From Parabacteroides johnsonii DSM 18315 (GTDB taxonomy: Bacteria; Bacteroidota; Bacteroidia; Bacteroidales; Tannerellaceae), in contig NZ_CP102285.1 in NCBI RefSeq assembly GCF_025151045.1, forward strand, positions 682,001 to 746,000: DNA of 64,000 nt, read 5' to 3'. Below are positions 24,032-51,558 of the stretch, piece after piece; position 1 is the stretch's first letter; each line of letters begins with the position of its first letter. The notes below the pieces were generated by a model, which had not been told where the DNA came from, searched no databases, and saw only the letters and a list, made by a program, of their open reading frames with translations. Position numbers and translations under genes: made by a program.

Positions 24032-24805
24032 TCATTCCTGAAGTGCTGCCTGTAACTTATCGACCGCCCTGTCGATTGTCGGTTCACTCTTCAATAGTTG
24101 CATGAATTTGCTGCCGATAATAGCTCCAGATGAGTTAGTAGCTGCTGCATCGAAGGTTGCTTTGTTCGATATGCCGAAACCGACCAGGCGCGGATTCCGG
24201 AGTCTCATCCCGTTGATGCGGTGGAAATAAGCCTGCTTTTGCTCGTTGAAACTCTGCTGTGCTCCGGTAGTGGAGGCGCTCGACACCATGTAGATGAAAC
24301 CGCTTGTATGTTCATCGATCAGGCGGATGCGTTCTTCGGAGGTTTCAGGTGTGATGAGCATGATCATTTTGAGGTTATTCCGTTCGGCGATGGCTTTATA
24401 CTCTTTCATATAATCGGCAAAAGGCAGGTCCGGAATGATCATACCGTCCACACCTGTCAGTGCACATTTCCGGCAGAATGCTTCGAAGCCATATTGCATG
24501 ATCGGATTCAGATAGCCCATCAGGATAATCGGGATATGCACATCCTGACGGATATCTTCTAACTGTTCGAACAGAACATGCAATGACATCCCGTTTCGTA
24601 ACGCGGCAGTAGAGGCTTCCTGGATCACGGGGCCGTCAGCCATCGGGTCGGAGAAGGGAATACCGATCTCTACCATGTCTATTCCTTTGTCCTCTAACTC
24701 TTTTAATATCTTCGTCGTATCATCCAGGTTCGGATATCCGGCGGTGAAGAAGACGGATAGGATTCCATTCTTCTTTGTGTTGAATAAATTTGTGATACGG
24801 TTCAT
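24032..24805 (-). CDS. trpA: Tryptophan synthase alpha chain
   Basis: A 257-residue TIM barrel that cleaves indole-3-glycerol phosphate and passes indole to TrpB. The catalytic Glu lies in [17 protein letters not shown], and the catalytic Asp in [10 protein letters not shown]. The phosphate loop is [12 protein letters not shown], with IIGSKFM after it. It is the last gene of the trp operon (order B-E-G-D-C-F-A), 15 bases after trpF. The spacer and the end of trpF consist of AT-rich repeat words (AATCATAATTCATAAATC). It ends beside a palindromic region that faces the efflux operon. Confidence 0.97.
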
Positions 24806-24820
24806 CTTTTGATTTCAGAT

Positions 24821-25486
24821 TTATGAATTATGATTTTGAATTTCTTTTAAAAACTCCTTTAGCTTTTCTATGTCTTTCCGCCCCGGCTCGATCTCGAATC
24901 CGCTATTCAGATCGATCCCGGCAAAGCGGGGATGCCGGAAAGAGCGTATTGCCTCGACACTTTCCGGCCGGATACCTCCGCTTAACAGAAAAGGTGTCTC
25001 TCCCTGATAAGCTTCAAGTATGGACCAATCGAATTGCTTGCCGGAACCTCCATAACTGTTGCTTTTGGTATCGAAGAGGAAGTAATCGACACGCCCTTCA
25101 TAATCGGTAGTTTGTTCAAGATCGCAAGCTGTTGCAATCTGAAATGCCTTGATCAGCGAGTAACCACGCTTTTGCAAGGCATGGCAATCGTCCGGTGTCT
25201 CATTTCCGTGCAGTTGCAGGTAATCGAGTCGGAACAATGCCGCTGTTTCCACCAACTCTTCGAAGGAAGTGTTGACAAAAACACCGACCTTTTTTAATGG
25301 ACAATTGATAATTGACAATTGACAATCAGAATACCGCTTGCTGCCATTGTCAATAGTTAATTGTCCATTGTTAGTTATTCTTCGTGGACTTCTCGCGAAA
25401 AATATCAGTCCTATCCAGTCAACCCCTAAGGCTGCAACTTCCCGTATATTTTCGGGATCACGCATTCCGCATACTTTGATGATCAT
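24821..25486 (-). CDS. trpF: Phosphoribosylanthranilate isomerase with in-frame repeat insertion
   Basis: A 221-residue TIM barrel that carries out the Amadori rearrangement of PRA to CdRP. The catalytic Cys is in the start segment IKVCGMRDPENI, and the catalytic Asp in DYFLFDTKSN. LSGGIRPESV and GIDLNSGFE form the phosphate site. Residues about 40-64 (NGQLTIDNGS to NCPLK) lie in the variable first loop and are encoded by a palindromic repeat (25297-25369). The frame is intact and all core residues are present, so I expect an active enzyme. The C-terminal EIQNHNS also comes from repeat words. It overlaps trpC by four bases (ATGA). Confidence 0.95.
   Translation of the reverse strand: MIIKVCGMRDPENIREVAALGVDWIGLIFFARSPRRITNNGQLTIDNGSKRYSDCQLSIINCPLKKVGVFVNTSFEELVETAALFRLDYLQLHGNETPDDCHALQKRGYSLIKAFQIATACDLEQTTDYEGRVDYFLFDTKSNSYGGSGKQFDWSILEAYQGETPFLLSGGIRPESVEAIRSFRHPRFAGIDLNSGFEIEPGRKDIEKLKEFLKEIQNHNS
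25297..25369. repeat. Palindromic repeat inside trpF
   Basis: AATGGACAATT (25297-25307) and AATTGTCCATT (25359-25369) are exact inverted repeats. Between them are further ATTGACAATT and CCATTGTCAAT words. The same words fill the junctions trpB/trpE, trpE/trpG and trpG/trpD. Here the element lies within the trpF frame and is 73 bases long; flanking bases keep the frame open. Confidence 0.8.
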
Positions 25487-26292
25487 GATAATCCTTCTAT
25501 GAATTGTGCGAGAGTGTCGCCTGGTACATCGGTTTTCATGAATGTCTCTCCGATCAGGAATCCATGAAAACCAGCTTCTCTGAGGTTCGATACGGTGGTT
25601 GTGGTCGAAATACCGCTTTCTGATACTAACAAAGGAGAAAGATTTCTTTCACGAGCGACCGTTTGCATTGCTTTTGCCAGACGGAAGGAGTTTTCCACAT
25701 CAGTATGAAATGTTCCGAGGTTGCGGTTATTCACTCCCAGCATATCGACAAATGGATTGAGGTGGTCAAGTTCTTCTTCGGAATGGATTTCCAACAGTAC
25801 TTCCATGTTGAGGGTATGAGCTAACTTTGCAAACATAAGGCATTGTTCCGGGGTAAGGCAGGCGGCAATCAACAGGACGGCATCGGCACCCATCACGCGT
25901 GCTTGATAGAGTTGATATTCGTCAATGATGAAGTCCTTCCTCAATAAGGGCAGGCCCACCAGGCTACGTGCTTTGCAAAGGTCACCTAAGGAACCCCCGA
26001 AAAAGTTCGAATCGGTCAGGACAGAGCAGGCGGAAGCGCCTCCCTTCTCATAGGCGGGCAAGACATCGGCTATAGCTGCATCGGGATGTAACCAGCCTTT
26101 CGAAGGACTTTTTCTCTTAAACTCGGCAATGATGCCCGATGAAGATGCTGCGAGAGCCGCCCGCATGGAACGGGCAGGATGTTCGAGTCGTTCACCGCCC
26201 AGCCCCAATAAGGTCTGCAACCGGACAGCTTGTTTTTGTCGCTCCACTTCGATACGCTTATTCGCTATAATATCTTGTAATATATCTTTCAT
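25483..26292 (-). CDS. trpC: Indole-3-glycerol phosphate synthase
   Basis: A 269-residue TIM barrel that closes CdRP to indole-3-glycerol phosphate. Motifs seen are IIAEFKRKSPSKGWL (catalytic Lys and phosphate-binding), LLRKDFIIDEYQLYQA (catalytic Lys), MEVLLEIHSEEEL (catalytic Glu), LGVNNRNLGTF and SESGIS. The start at 26292 (MKDILQDII) fits the family; an upstream ATG at 26319 would overlap trpD by 17 bases and add nine unlike residues coded by repeat-type sequence. trpC and trpF are separate genes here, not fused as in enteric bacteria. Confidence 0.95.
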   Translation of the reverse strand: MKDILQDIIANKRIEVERQKQAVRLQTLLGLGGERLEHPARSMRAALAASSSGIIAEFKRKSPSKGWLHPDAAIADVLPAYEKGGASACSVLTDSNFFGGSLGDLCKARSLVGLPLLRKDFIIDEYQLYQARVMGADAVLLIAACLTPEQCLMFAKLAHTLNMEVLLEIHSEEELDHLNPFVDMLGVNNRNLGTFHTDVENSFRLAKAMQTVARERNLSPLLVSESGISTTTTVSNLREAGFHGFLIGETFMKTDVPGDTLAQFIEGLS

Positions 26293-26302
26293 ATTCGTTG
26301 TT

Positions 26303-27307
26303 TCATTGTAATTTGTCATTCAAACTGATAAACGTATTGAATGTCTGCAATGCTTTACCACTTTCCAATGCTTCTCGGGCTTCGTCCAGACATTCAGCGA
26401 TTCTCTTTTCCGGGCAGATGACTTGGATGGCGAAAGCAGAGTTGGCGATTACGCAATTCTTTTGTGCAGGAGTCGCTCGGTTATTCAGGACATCGTCAAA
26501 GATGCGGGCTGCTTCGGCGACTGTCTCACCGCCATCCAGTTCCGCTTCCGTTGTGCGGGAGAAACCTAACATTTCCGGTGTGTAGAGCTTCTCTTTTTCC
26601 GGCATTGCTACCTTAAATTCTGCAGTCAGCGAGATTTCGTCATACCCGTCGAGGCTATGTACAACGGCAAAACGCGTTCCGCTCTCCTGATAGGTATAGC
26701 TGTAAAGCCTGAGCAATGGCAGGTTGTACACACCTAACAACTGGTAGGCTGGCATTACCGGATTGACCAGCGGGCCGAGCATGTTGAAGAAGCTGCGCAC
26801 TCCTAAACTCTTCCGTATCGGAGCCACAGCCTTCAGTGCCGGATTGAATAGCGGCGCATGCAGGTAGGCAATGTGGCAGGCTTCCATCGAGCGGCGCAAC
26901 CGGTCGATATCGGTCGTAAATTTCACGCCATGCTGCTCCATTACGTTGCTGGCGCCGCTGACCGAGGTCGCCCCATAGTTTCCATGTTTCACAACGTTAT
27001 ATCCGGCACCGGCTACGACAAAGCAGGAGGCTGTGCTGATATTAAACGTATTCTTTCCATCGCCTCCCGTCCCCACAATATCGATCGGCTTAAACTCCGA
27101 CAAATCTACCGGGACACGCATTTCGAGTAGCGCTTCGCGGAAACCTGTCAACTCTTCTACGGAGATATTGCGCATCAGATATACCGTTATCAGGCTGGCA
27201 ATCTGTGAATCGTTATACTTGCCTGCCGCAATATTCTGAAGAATCGTTCGTGCCTCGTCACGTCCTAAATACTGATGTTCGAATAACCTGTATAATACAT
27301 CTTTCAT
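26303..27307 (-). CDS. trpD: Anthranilate phosphoribosyltransferase
   Basis: A 334-residue protein transferring phosphoribose to anthranilate. It shows the PRPP loop DIVGTGGDGKNTFNIST, the NYGATSVSGASNVMEQHG anthranilate segment, FNMLGPLVNP and the acidic DGYDEIS region that holds the metal. The length is usual for the family. It starts 5 bases after the trpG stop. No glutamine amidotransferase is fused to it, unlike the enteric TrpGD. Confidence 0.96.
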   Translation of the reverse strand: MKDVLYRLFEHQYLGRDEARTILQNIAAGKYNDSQIASLITVYLMRNISVEELTGFREALLEMRVPVDLSEFKPIDIVGTGGDGKNTFNISTASCFVVAGAGYNVVKHGNYGATSVSGASNVMEQHGVKFTTDIDRLRRSMEACHIAYLHAPLFNPALKAVAPIRKSLGVRSFFNMLGPLVNPVMPAYQLLGVYNLPLLRLYSYTYQESGTRFAVVHSLDGYDEISLTAEFKVAMPEKEKLYTPEMLGFSRTTEAELDGGETVAEAARIFDDVLNNRATPAQKNCVIANSAFAIQVICPEKRIAECLDEAREALESGKALQTFNTFISLNDKLQ

Positions 27308-27312
27308 CTTCC

Positions 27313-27921
27313 CTAATTTATTAATTCTTGATTGTTAATTATCAATTGCCCATTGCCATCGGCAATCCAGTTCCATATGATTGTCTTTCCTTTAGGCGTC
27401 AGTACGGATTCCGGATGGAACTGGATGCCGCGAACATCATATTCACGATGCCGGAGCGCCATAATCTGCCCTTCCTCCACATCTTCCGCCGTGATCTCCA
27501 GACAGTCGGGGAAATTCTCTTTTGAGACCACCCACGAATGGTAGCGACCGGCACGGAAACCCGGTTCCAGACCGGTGAACAATGGGTCTGGAGCTTTCAC
27601 CCGTATATCCGAACAGACTCCGTGATGCACATCCGTCAGGTTGGTAAGTGTTGCACCGAACGCTTCCCCGATGGCTTGCTCTCCGAGGCAAACACCCAAA
27701 ATACTCTTGGTCGGAGCATAGCGGCGGATTAATGGCAGCAAGATACCTGCCTCCTCTGGGATACCCGGACCTGGTGACAAAAGAATCTTGTCAAAACGTT
27801 CTACTTCGTCTAATGATATCTTGTCATTGCGATGTACTTCTACATCCACATCTAATTCCTTTAATATGTGCAACAGGTTGTAGGTAAAGGAATCATAATT
27901 ATCGAATAGTAATACTTTCAT
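27313..27921 (-). CDS. trpG: Anthranilate synthase component II (glutamine amidotransferase)
   Basis: A class I amidotransferase of about 202 residues supplying ammonia to TrpE. The catalytic triad is Cys in ILGVCLGEQAIG and His-Glu in GIQFHPESVLT; LLSPGPGIPEEAG forms the oxyanion side. The start at 27921 (MKVLLFDNYDSF) is the family norm; an upstream ATG at 27948 lies in spacer sequence. The last residues (NGQLIINNQELIN) go beyond the usual end and are encoded by repeat words at 27331-27357, so an intergenic repeat seems to have supplied a new C-terminus. Confidence 0.95.
   Translation of the reverse strand: MKVLLFDNYDSFTYNLLHILKELDVDVEVHRNDKISLDEVERFDKILLSPGPGIPEEAGILLPLIRRYAPTKSILGVCLGEQAIGEAFGATLTNLTDVHHGVCSDIRVKAPDPLFTGLEPGFRAGRYHSWVVSKENFPDCLEITAEDVEEGQIMALRHREYDVRGIQFHPESVLTPKGKTIIWNWIADGNGQLIINNQELIN
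27331..27357. repeat. AT-rich repeat word at trpG/trpD junction
   Basis: The plus strand reads ATTGTTAATTATCAATTGCC and onward, a variant of the words in the trpF insertion and the two upstream trp junctions. It lies within the last codons of trpG. Confidence 0.6.
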
Positions 27922-27940
27922 AAAAACTCTGTTTATTTTT

Positions 27941-27965
27941 ATTATCAATTATCCATTGTCAATTG
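27941..27965. repeat. AT-rich repeat word at trpE/trpG junction
   Basis: The plus strand reads ATTATCAATTATCCATTGTC then AATTG. The trpE stop codon (27959-27961) lies in it, so the last TrpE residues (about LIN) are set by the repeat. Confidence 0.6.
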
Positions 27966-29362
27966 ATTAATGTTGTTGCCAGGTCGATCGCTTTTTTCAG
28001 AGCACCTAACTTATTATTCACTTCCTGCAATTCCCGCTCATCATTGCTTTTGGCGACTATGCCGGCTCCTGCCTGATAGTACAGAACATTTCCACGACTG
28101 ACGAATGTACGGATCGTGATCGCCTGGTTCAAGTCTCCATCAAAGCCGATAAACCCGATGCAACCACCATAAGCGCCTCGGTTATGTTTTTCTATATCTG
28201 TAATCAATTGCATGGCGCGTACCTTCGGTGCTCCGCTCAATGTTCCGGCAGGAAATGTATCTATATAAGTTTTGACCGGATTACTATCGGTGTTGATCTC
28301 ACCGCTGACACGCGATACCAGATGAATGACGTGACTGTAGTATTGCACTTCCTTATAGAAATCGACCTGTACGTCATGTGCATTGCGCGAGAGGTCATTA
28401 CGGGCAAGGTCGACTAACATTACATGCTCGGCATTCTCTTTCGGATCGGCAAGCAGAGCCTCGGTGCGCTGTCTGTCTAATGCTACATTTCCCGTACGGA
28501 AAGCTGTGCCTGCAATCGGGTCGATGCTTGCATGTCTGTCGGCTACCTTACAGTGTGTTTCAGGTGAGGAACCGAAGATACGGAACCCTCCGAAGTCGAA
28601 ATAAAACAGATAGGGGGAAGGATTGATACTCCGGAGGGCCCGGTAAACCTTGAAATCGTCTCCTTTGAACGGTTGCTCGAACCGGCGGCTCAATACGATC
28701 TGGAATACGTCTCCACGGAGGCAGTGGCGGATACCTTCCCGCACCATTGCTTTATATTCTTCCCCGCTGATAGGAGATGTCTCAGGACCGATGGTCTGGA
28801 AGTTATAAGAAGCATAGTTCCGGTTTTCGATCAATGTCTCTATCTCCTGCAAATTGGAGCTTTCGCCGGGTTGCAGCAATTCTACCAGTGTCAACTCATT
28901 TTTGAAGTGATTGAACACAAGTACATACTTATATAATATGTAAAGCATATCGGGTGCATCGTTTTCTTCATGGTGAGCTTCCATCACCGGGATGTCCTCA
29001 AAGTAACGTACAGCGTCAAAAGCCGTATATCCGAACAGCCCGCAGACTTTCTTGTCAAGGCCTTCAATCAAGAAACGCTTCAAAAATGCATTTATGGCAT
29101 CCGCCACATTGAATGTTTCCGTCAATGCCGTAACCTCGCTTTCTCCATCAGGAAAAATAGCGGTGCATTCCCCATTATTGATTCCGATACTTGCCAGCGG
29201 ACAAAGTGCTATATAGGAAAGGCTGTTTTCATTTCCATGGAAATCGGAACTTTCCAATAAAGCCGATTCCGGATAAATATCTCGCACCTTCAAGTAGATG
29301 CTGACGGGTGTGTGAAGGTCACCGAGAACCTTCCTGCTTATTGTTTTAAATGTATAATCCAT
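27959..29362 (-). CDS. trpE: Anthranilate synthase component I
   Basis: A 467-residue chorismate-utilising enzyme that makes anthranilate with TrpG. The N-terminal LLESSD is the motif linked to feedback inhibition by tryptophan. The catalytic domain includes [61 protein letters not shown] and [13 protein letters not shown], all standard. Its start overlaps the end of trpB by 17 bases, which suggests coupled translation. Control probably acts both by enzyme feedback and by the leader at the head of the operon. Confidence 0.97.
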
Positions 29363-30563
29363 CTTTTTTTGAATTGTCCATTGTCAATTTGTAATTAATA
29401 TATGTTTCCAAATCCTTATCTCCCCGGCCTGATACCGTCAGGACAACGACATCTTCTGGTTTGAATTTTATCTTGGGTAATGCTCCTAATGCGTGTGCAC
29501 TTTCAAGTGCCGGAATAATTCCCTCGATGCGCGTCAGGCAAAAAGCCGCATCTAACGCTTCGTCATCATTGACGGCAAGAATCGTAGCCCGGTGAGTTTC
29601 CGACAGGTTGGCGTGGATCGGTCCGATACCCGGATAGTCCAGTCCGGCAGAGATGGAATAAGGCTCTTCGATTTGCCCGTCCTCGTTTTGCATCACTAAC
29701 GTGCGCGCTCCATGTATGATACCTTTCTTGCCTAATTGGATGGTTGCTGCGCTTTGTCCGGTCGTAATCCCCAAACCGCCCGCTTCGGCAAGAACGATTT
29801 TTACCCGTTCATCATCAATAAAATGATAGATCGTTCCGGCAGCGTTGCTTCCGCCACCTACACAGGCGATCAGATAATCCGGATAGTCACGTCCTTCCTG
29901 CTCCGACAACTGCTTTTTAATCTCTTCGCTGATAACGGATTGCAAACGTGCCACCATATCCGGATAAGGATGGGGGCCGACTGTCGACCCGATGATATAA
30001 TATGTGTCGGAAGGATGGCAGCACCAGTCGCGGATCGCTTCATTGGTCGCATCTTTCAGTGTCATATTACCAGAAGTTACGGGGATGACCGTCGCGCCCA
30101 ACATCTCCATTTTCTGCACGTTTGCATGTTGGCGTTCCACATCCGTCTTACCCATATAAACGATACATTCCATATTCATCAACGCACAGACAGTAGCGGT
30201 TGCCACGCCGTGCTGTCCGGCTCCCGTCTCGGCTATGATACGGGTTTTTCCCATCCGGCGGGCCAACAAGATCTGTCCGATCGTGTTGTTGATCTTATGA
30301 GCGCCGGTATGGTTCAGATCTTCACGCTTCAGATATATCTTGCAGCCATACATCTCACTCAGCCTTTTAGCCTGATAGAGAGGAGAAGGGCGGCCGACAT
30401 AGTCCCGAAGTAACTGGTTGAATTCTTTCTTGAAACTGTCACTTTCCAATACTTCCAGATACTTCTTCTGCAAGTTTTCCACACATTGGTGAAGTATTTC
30501 GGGCACATATGCTCCTCCAAACTCACCATAATACCCATTTTCGTCAACTTGATACGTTTTCAT
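29346..30563 (-). CDS. trpB: Tryptophan synthase beta chain
   Basis: A 405-residue PLP enzyme joining indole and serine. The PLP lysine is in [13 protein letters not shown], with [16 protein letters not shown] and the phosphate loop [10 protein letters not shown]. It is a TrpB1-type protein. The operon thus begins with the enzyme for the last step, a usual Bacteroidales order. The final residues ([15 protein letters not shown]) extend beyond the normal end and are written by a repeat word (29372-29399) plus trpE start sequence. A leader of about 210 bases with an attenuator precedes it. Confidence 0.97.
29372..29399. repeat. AT-rich repeat word at trpB/trpE junction
   Basis: The plus strand reads AATTGTCCATTGTCAATTTG then TAATTAAT, sharing the AATTGTCCATTGTCAAT core with the trpF insertion. 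It lies within the end of the trpB frame. Confidence 0.6.
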
Positions 30564-30622: not shown

Positions 30623-30655
30623 AAAAAAGGCCTGCCGCAAGTGCGACAGACCTTT
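30623..30655 (-). terminator. trp operon attenuator (intrinsic terminator)
   Basis: On the minus strand a 13-base-pair stem AAAGGTCTGTCGC/GCGGCAGGCCTTT (30643-30655 with 30626-30638) with an ACTT loop is followed by a run of T (30623-30628). It stands between the Trp-rich leader peptide and trpB, about 40 bases after the leader stop codon. A terminator between a promoter and its first structural gene makes sense only if it is conditional. Confidence 0.9.
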
Positions 30656-30693
30656 TATTATATCACGATAGTATATACATGAGGGCTGGTTCC

Positions 30694-30756
30694 TTACGAC
30701 CTTATGAGTTGTAAAGAGCGCCACCACCAATATGTATTTACTATAATTGTTCTCAT
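30694..30756 (-). CDS. trpL: trp leader peptide with three consecutive Trp codons
   Basis: A 20-codon frame starts at ATG 30754-30756, about 17 bases after the predicted transcription start, and ends with TAA at 30694-30696. The middle reads NTYWWWRS: three TGG codons in a row at 30721-30729. It stands between a strong promoter and a strong terminator ahead of trpB, the arrangement of ribosome-mediated attenuation in enteric trp operons. When charged tRNA-Trp is scarce a ribosome would stall at TGG and let transcription pass. I did not resolve the antiterminator pairing by eye. The leader has AAGGTC at 30698-30703, copying the 5' arm of the terminator stem, which might compete for its 3' arm. 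Confidence 0.85.
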   Translation of the reverse strand: MRTIIVNTYWWWRSLQLIRS

Positions 30757-30779
30757 GACTTTTGTTATTATTACGGCAG

Positions 30780-30810
30780 CAAATATATGCATTCTCTGAC
30801 AAACTGCAAA
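30780..30810 (-). promoter_or_regulatory. Promoter of the trp operon
   Basis: A perfect phylum consensus on the minus strand: TTTG (30807-30810), 19 bases, then TATATTTG (30780-30787). Transcription should start near 30773, giving a leader of about 210 bases before trpB. Confidence 0.85.
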
Positions 30811-51328: not shown

Positions 51329-51558
51329 AGAAAAATGAGTTAGCCGCACATGTTCGATTGGGAAACTCATCAGTTTATTTTAATTCCGAGACACAGCTCT
51401 TGTCGTCAATGGCGGGCCGCACCCTTCGGGGCATGCTTAGCACGGCGGATTACAAAGATGGCAAAGCACTCAAATCCTGTCATACGGAGTTTGTTCATAT
51501 CTACGGTGCGGCTTTCTTTACATAGGAGGATATGTCAGAACAGGCATATCCTCTTTTT
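51329..51558 (+). ncRNA. Bacteroidales-1-like non-coding RNA downstream of rplT
   Basis: The region of about 230 bases has its own promoter and ends in a strong terminator (51526-51534 pairs with 51545-51553, then five T). GCCGCAC near the 5' end (51343-51349) pairs with GTGCGGC near the 3' end (51506-51512), and ATGAGTT pairs with AACTCAT within the first 45 bases. The GC-rich centre contains GCCGCACCCTTCGGGGC. The published Bacteroidales-1 RNA motif is described as lying downstream of the L20 gene, bounded by a phylum-type promoter and a terminator; this fits exactly. I recall that it may be a 6S-like RNA but cannot confirm that. An open frame across it begins inside the rplT terminator and is not credible. 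Confidence 0.75.

Follow-up and report, generated by a model that had tools for sequence, protein, structure and literature searches.

The trp operon of Parabacteroides johnsonii DSM 18315 is preceded by a leader which is probably a tryptophan-responsive, ribosome-mediated attenuator, in which a strand lying over the leader stop codon (segment 2) would act as antiterminator by pairing with the loop and the 3' arm of the terminator. The parts of this leader are present upstream of trpB, the pairs between segment 2 and the terminator are conserved among related leaders, and these pairs undergo two-sided changes. The element itself is known, which makes the finding as first given an ordinary one; the possible novelty is in the antiterminator pairing.

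The whole stretch of DNA that was analysed, 64,000 nucleotides in length, is called the window below. The features of the leader and of the operon within it are the following:

30780 to 30810, minus strand: promoter, with TTTG at 30810-30807, a spacer of 19 nt and TATATTTG at 30787-30780
30645 to 30776, minus strand: match of the Rfam covariance model RF01692 (Bacteroid-trp)
30694 to 30756, minus strand: leader peptide MRTIIVNTYWWWRSLQLIRS and its stop codon (ATG at 30756, 20 sense codons, TAA ending at 30694)
30711 to 30716, minus strand: segment 1, CUUUAC, which pairs with GUAAGG (30697-30692) to form the protection helix
30693 to 30700, minus strand: segment 2, GUCGUAAG, over the leader stop codon, the proposed antiterminator strand
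30643 to 30656, minus strand: segment 3, the 5' arm of the terminator, AAAAGGUCUGUCGC, from folding and from the parse of the leader
30634 to 30641, minus strand: partner of segment 2, CUUGCGGC, made of the terminator loop (CUU) and the top of the 3' arm
30625 to 30638, minus strand: segment 4, the 3' arm of the terminator, GCGGCAGGCCUUUU, with the T-tract at 30628-30623
29346 to 30563, minus strand: trpB, first gene of the operon (ATG at 30563; TIGR00263, 584.8 bits for a cut-off of 392.45)
24032 to 29362, minus strand: trpE, trpG, trpD, trpC, trpF and trpA, from NCBIfam matches (the names trpE and trpF are those of the best match, which is below the curated cut-off in both cases)

The original prediction had described a promoter, a 20-codon leader with three TGG codons and a terminator followed by a T-tract ahead of trpB, and a re-reading of the minus strand agrees with this description; the terminator is there with its T-tract, but the stem, which had been counted at 13 pairs, folds as 14 pairs with the loop ACTT. 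Transcription is predicted to start at about 30775, from the position of the promoter box. As in a ribosome-mediated trp attenuator, a short open reading frame with successive Trp codons (TGG three times, 30729-30721, minus strand) precedes the trp operon, and an intrinsic terminator sits between this frame and trpB. The 161-nt leader folds with an energy of -51.3 kcal/mol (z = -5.67), and none of 200 shuffled sequences is equally stable.

A known leader element and its distribution

The window matches RF01692 over the full length of the model (positions 1-131 of 131) with a score of 95.9 bits, for a cut-off of 49 and an E value of 2e-11 over the whole window, and the genome contains a single copy of it. 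The model includes the region of the leader ORF and a protection stem, and it stops within the 5' arm of the terminator; it contains no pairs for the terminator, nor any between segment 2 and the loop. In the scan of the window, no T-box model of Rfam reached its cut-off, and RF01692 and RF01693 were the only models which did. The RF01693 match (Bacteroidales-1, suggested to be the 6S RNA of Bacteroidales) lies at 51342-51519 on the plus strand of the window and scores 191.2 bits, for a cut-off of 60.

Vitreschak et al. are said to have predicted amino-acid attenuators in Bacteroidetes. Bacteroid-trp is an entry of Table 1 of Weinberg et al. 2010 (PMC2864571), whose main text contains neither the words "leader peptide" nor the word "tryptophan" and whose references include a paper by Vitreschak et al. 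The available passages on Flavobacterium psychrophilum place a Bacteroid-Trp element upstream of the trp operon and compare it to the E. coli leader (PMC6414381), mention strong clues of attenuation by leader peptides ahead of amino-acid operons, and report that five Rfam cis-regulatory predictions are expressed (PMC9723704). The element is the same as that of the window, and the antiterminator pairing is absent from these passages. According to the accessible part of a study of 2010, leader peptide systems were then known solely in Proteobacteria and Actinobacteria, besides the Firmicutes case of that study (PMC2965389).

The trp leader of Bacteroidota is therefore an element already known and not a new one, since it was published as RF01692 and has been compared, in F. 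psychrophilum, to the E. coli leader. The original prediction was unsure whether it had been described for the genus; what the available parts of the literature describe is the element, as RF01692 (PMC2864571) and in F. psychrophilum (PMC6414381). No description of the pairing of segment 2 with the loop and the 3' arm was found in the literature that could be searched, most subscription journals and supplements being beyond reach.

With stricter filters, at which weak matches are lost, RF01692 is found in 64 of the 123 genomes of the window's family and in 42 of the 395 genomes of a sample of the phylum. Within the genus, 30 of the 38 genomes have a match. Among the eight others, two carry a longer leader that retains TGGTGG (L130 and L134), four have a distant TrpB-like protein alone, and in two TrpB is present only from residue 126 or residue 150 onwards. 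All 32 genus genomes in which the N-terminal end of TrpB can be inspected have, ahead of TrpB, a leader carrying two or more TGG codons in a row (30 by RF01692 and two by eye, the second TrpB copy of G056, which is 54% identical, being left out). This supports the ribosome-stalling layout of a trp attenuator that had been proposed for the window, and none of these 32 genomes keeps the terminator while having lost the TGG run.

All 104 RF01692 loci have successive Trp codons in the leader (three in 82 loci, two in 22), a figure which is partly obtained by construction, as the model itself holds UGG letters. The first gene of the tryptophan pathway downstream encodes TrpB in 66 of these loci, TrpE in 36 and TrpD in 2. 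The families are designated by the codes f1 to f6, as assigned by the tool, and we infer that f6 is the Flavobacteriaceae.

R1, a model of our own trained on such leaders, matches the plus strand upstream of trpB in 79 of 80 named loci, the exception (L181) having 8 nt of upstream DNA. TGGTGG, searched in any frame, is present in 77 of these 79 loci, which are mostly of the order; in the two others (L204 and L208), the R1 match upstream of trpB lacks a pair of successive TGG codons. R1 also gives matches on the minus strand of up to 42.5 bits, which we take to reflect chance and the near-palindromic terminator; L204, with 36.6 bits, is below this value, and L213, with 43.0 bits, is barely above it. 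Among the 80 loci listed, which may omit records from this genome or from one very close to it, the closest named TrpB is that of Parabacteroides massiliensis (98%).

Proposed pairing of segment 2 with the terminator loop and 3' arm

The original prediction had noticed that the word AAGGTC, over the leader stop, copies the 5' arm of the terminator. The word is present and the core of the idea was right, but the conserved word at this place is GTCGTAAG, and the comparison of related leaders suggests that its partner is the loop together with the top of the 3' arm, and not the 5' half as in E. coli.

In an alignment of 102 leaders (the 104 loci minus two duplicate leaders), 94.9% of the 782 cells of this helix pair, against 30-37% in slid controls. 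Five of the eight pairs show two-sided change, which is equalled in 2 of 500 shuffles, and 54 cells are changed on both sides, which is equalled in none. Column 165, a loop position with no partner in the terminator, goes from AU (54) to GC (44) together with segment 2.

The pairing was picked after inspection of the sequences, and a second alignment was built from a later set, with overlapping lineages, in which the window's leader is joined by the 43 further leaders left after 38 of 81 R1 matches contained in the earlier loci had been removed. Here 92.3% of the cells are paired (21-67% in the slid versions) and 19 cells are two-sided, a number reached by none of 500 shuffles. Four pairs have two-sided change and 11 further pair types occur, numbers which 130 and 302 of the 500 shuffles, respectively, also reach, so that neither exceeds the shuffles.

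The duplex energy with the terminator of the same locus is -10.9, versus -8.8 with the terminators of other loci (88 distinct loci, 16 duplicates having been dropped from the 104), and none of 20000 permutations, which are uncorrected for relatedness, is as good. Relatedness is accounted for in simulations on a rapidly built TrpB tree of 81 loci, and the support obtained in this way is mixed, as the two-sided changes exceed the null and total pairing does not. Twenty-four two-sided paired cells are counted, where 300 simulations with independent columns give 2.2 on average and 8 at most, and total pairing is 612 of 646 versus a simulated 605 ± 13, with 110 of the 300 runs as high. A phylogenetic test on independent pairs had too few of them (for pair 1, 1.4 same-way changes versus 1.0 other-way).

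Matched changes on the two strands are seen in several leaders. The window has GUCGUAAG facing CUUGCGGC, most f6 leaders have GUCGUGA facing UCACGAC, and the corresponding sequences are AUUGUGAG and CUCACGAU in L076 and AUCGUAAG and UUUACGAU in L205. In L018 and L022, GUCGUAG faces CUGCGGC, each side being one base shorter. A further match, ACGUUGUG with CACAACGU in L213 and L214, was made by eye, and the alignments put these sequences elsewhere.

The position of the helix is also conserved. The best helix that the region following the Trp codons can form with the loop and 3' arm of the terminator begins 17-22 nt past the last Trp codon in 95 of the 104 loci and outside this range in 9; it has at least 7 pairs in 93, and both properties are found together in 89. 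The helices of L095, L099, L101 and L104 are short or misplaced. In seven loci (L012, L020, L026, L062, L067, L081 and L090), the leader frame extends past segment 2, with a stop whose end is 51-60 nt past the Trp codons, and segment 2 is still at 19-21 nt. Segment 2 is thus conserved at the level of the RNA, not for the stop codon, because its position stays the same in loci where the stop comes later.

The protection helix between segments 1 and 2 is paired in 83.8% of cells (29-51% in the slid versions) and in 88.6% in the further alignment (27-51%). Its two-sided cells are equalled in none of 500 shuffles in either alignment, and the number of its pairs with two-sided change is not above that of the shuffles (152 and 123 of 500 as high).

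The contact between segment 2 and the loop might instead be a pseudoknot or kissing contact of the terminated leader, which would serve its stability or the efficiency of termination. Such a contact would account for the part of the pairing carried by loop bases and for its retention in the seven loci whose frame passes segment 2. It is nevertheless unlikely: the helix also uses bases of the 3' arm, which are then unavailable to the 5' arm, and a helix that starts at the distance given above would clear a stalled ribosome.

Topology of the trp leaders and of the his, phe and ilv leaders

The antiterminator pairing of segment 2 with the loop and the 3' arm (2:4) can be compared with the classic pairing of segment 2 with the 5' arm (2:3). 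Over the 104 trp loci, the mean helix score is 10.8 for 2:3 versus 17.0 for 2:4, and 2:4 is the higher in 100 loci; the window's own leader scores higher for 2:4. The same measure gives 15 for 2:3 versus 9.5 for 2:4 in E. coli trpL. The two leaders are alike in having a run of Trp codons and a terminator ahead of the operon, and E. coli trpL likewise has a 1:2 protection helix and a stop adjoining segment 2. They differ in that segment 2 of E. coli trpL pairs best with the 5' arm (CGGGC:GCCCG), whereas that of the window's leader pairs best with the loop and the 3' arm.

In the same family, and in the window's genome, the leaders of his, phe and ilv have a codon-run peptide and a terminator, as in trp, but they score best for 2:3. 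The sets are the best 30 loci of the 54 (his), 55 (phe) and 59 (ilv) family genomes with a match. Upstream of hisG, the means are 16.9 for 2:3 versus 12.3 for 2:4 (23 loci, 21 favouring 2:3 and 2 ties); upstream of pheA, 18.9 versus 10.3 (29 of 29 favouring 2:3); upstream of ilvD, 20.0 versus 10.3 (22 of 22). The other loci could not be parsed: seven of 30 for his (six with no terminator, one with no leader), one of 30 for phe (no terminator) and eight of 30 for ilv (three with no ORF, three with no terminator, two with no leader); a leader is discernible by eye in one of the his rows and one of the ilv rows (L226 and L300). Trp is therefore the odd one out, because the same measure yields an ordinary 2:3 for his, phe, ilv and E. 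coli trpL.

The genome of the window contains one such leader of each kind. Upstream of hisG, outside the window (L215), a leader peptide MKSTVLHLHHHHYNGQ is followed by a terminator, and CGGUGGGCU can pair with its 5' arm. Upstream of pheA (L216), the leader peptide MNRFSFTYYFYYFYFSRVKAGVCM is rich in Phe and Tyr, and GGCAGGA is complementary to UCCUGCC in the 5' arm. Upstream of ilvD (L217), the leader peptide MMNNVLHIILVVVLLVISR is rich in Ile, Leu and Val, and GAGAAAGG is complementary to the 5' arm CCUUUCUC.

We lean slightly towards a reversed topology for trp, in which segment 2 would gain a foothold on the loop and take the 3' half of the hairpin. The decision would then come later than in 2:3 and be purely kinetic, the his, phe and ilv leaders would be ordinary 2:3 devices, and the topology of the trp leader would have changed between families. 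Should the reversed pairing prove right, two antiterminator designs would serve one control logic within a single cell, a switch would be able to change its topology and retain its sensor, and the timing of ribosome and polymerase would become testable in a phylum which rarely uses Shine-Dalgarno sites.

It is quite improbable that the trp leaders use the classic E. coli-type 2:3 antiterminator and that the complementarity of the loop is accidental. The control logic would be the same, the family's his, phe and ilv leaders pair in this manner, and four trp loci score higher for 2:3 (L098, L102, L103 and L017). Paired with the upper 5' arm, however, segment 2 has an energy of -5.2, near the -4.9 of the shuffles (88 distinct loci), so that this candidate was rejected; the predominance of 2:4 scores and the covariation of loop bases with segment 2 also stand against it.

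Three of the four exceptions (L098, L102 and L103) are from other families (f5 and f3) and form 2:3 helices of 10, 8 and 8 pairs; the fourth, L017, is in the window's family. The three are RF01692 members which pair best with the 5' arm, as if the topology had changed within the leader family.

The alternative fold of the original prediction, AAGGUC with GGCCUU, is hardly credible: it can form in the window and is 69.3% paired versus 20-59% for slid versions, but it was rejected for lack of any excess over shuffles, 170 of 500 being as high in pairing and 190 of 500 in covariation, and AAGGTC occurs in 11 of the 102 aligned leaders.

The lower stem of RF01692 (UACAUAU with AUGUAUA) was also set aside. 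It is paired in 72.8% of cells, and it was not leaned on because versions slid by -2 and +2 pair almost as well (71.4 and 68.9%) and 33 of 500 shuffles are as high.

Computed folding during transcription and proposed translation of the leader

The antiterminator formed by segment 2 with the loop and the 3' arm was followed with partition functions in the 93 of 104 loci whose helix has at least 7 pairs (in four of them it lies outside the 17-22 nt range), for an assumed ribosome footprint reaching 11 nt beyond the A-site codon. Once 6 nt of the 3' arm have emerged, its mean computed probability is 0.89 if the ribosome is stalled on the first Trp codon and 0.91 if it is stalled on the last; without a ribosome it is 0.13. 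When the ribosome has reached the stop, the top of the terminator forms (0.98), and the absence of the antiterminator helix in this state is by construction, segment 2 being cut from the folded RNA. In two f6 loci (L031 and L038), the antiterminator forms early without a ribosome too, with peaks of 0.85 and 0.97. In the full-length RNA the terminator wins in every state, with means of 0.95 and 0.93 in the stalled states versus 0.04 and 0.06 for the antiterminator. The switch would therefore have to be kinetic, since the terminator wins at full length even when the ribosome is stalled.

The helix which wins at each RNA length is a computed result; leader translation, stalling, the time course and the response to tryptophan are inferred in the following scheme. 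A ribosome would trail the polymerase through the 20-codon leader. With ample charged tRNA-Trp, it would reach the stop inside segment 2 and mask this segment, and the terminator would form; with no translation, segment 1 would hold segment 2 and termination would follow as well. When Trp-tRNA is scarce, the ribosome would stall at the TGG codons and cover or open segment 1, leaving segment 2 free. The free GUCGUAAG would then seize CUUGCGGC, made up of the loop and the beginning of the 3' arm, as it emerges and ahead of the 5' arm; the hairpin would be delayed beyond the T-tract and the polymerase would enter trpB.

Shine-Dalgarno sites are rarely used in Bacteroidota, and words resembling them were found upstream of 3 of 64 leaders of f1 and of none of 34 leaders of f6. 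According to the accessible text of PMC9723704, the TAnnTTTG box of F. psychrophilum covers -12 to -5, and this placement predicts a 5' UTR of 19 nt for the leader of the window. Such a length is ordinary, because most mRNAs of B. thetaiotaomicron have a 5' UTR of 23 nt, as stated in the available part of PMC7366714. Eleven of the 34 f6 loci have a predicted 5' UTR of 0-3 nt and would be near leaderless, with the -7 box close to the leader ATG; the predicted length is 12-16 nt in the 23 others and 15-24 nt in 52 of the 54 f1 loci outside g13 and g15. Leaderless translation was considered as a way around the missing ribosome-binding site, but it is not general, given the longer UTRs of most f6 and f1 loci. 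The region upstream of the leaders is rich in A, with fractions of 0.62 in f1 and 0.52 in f6.
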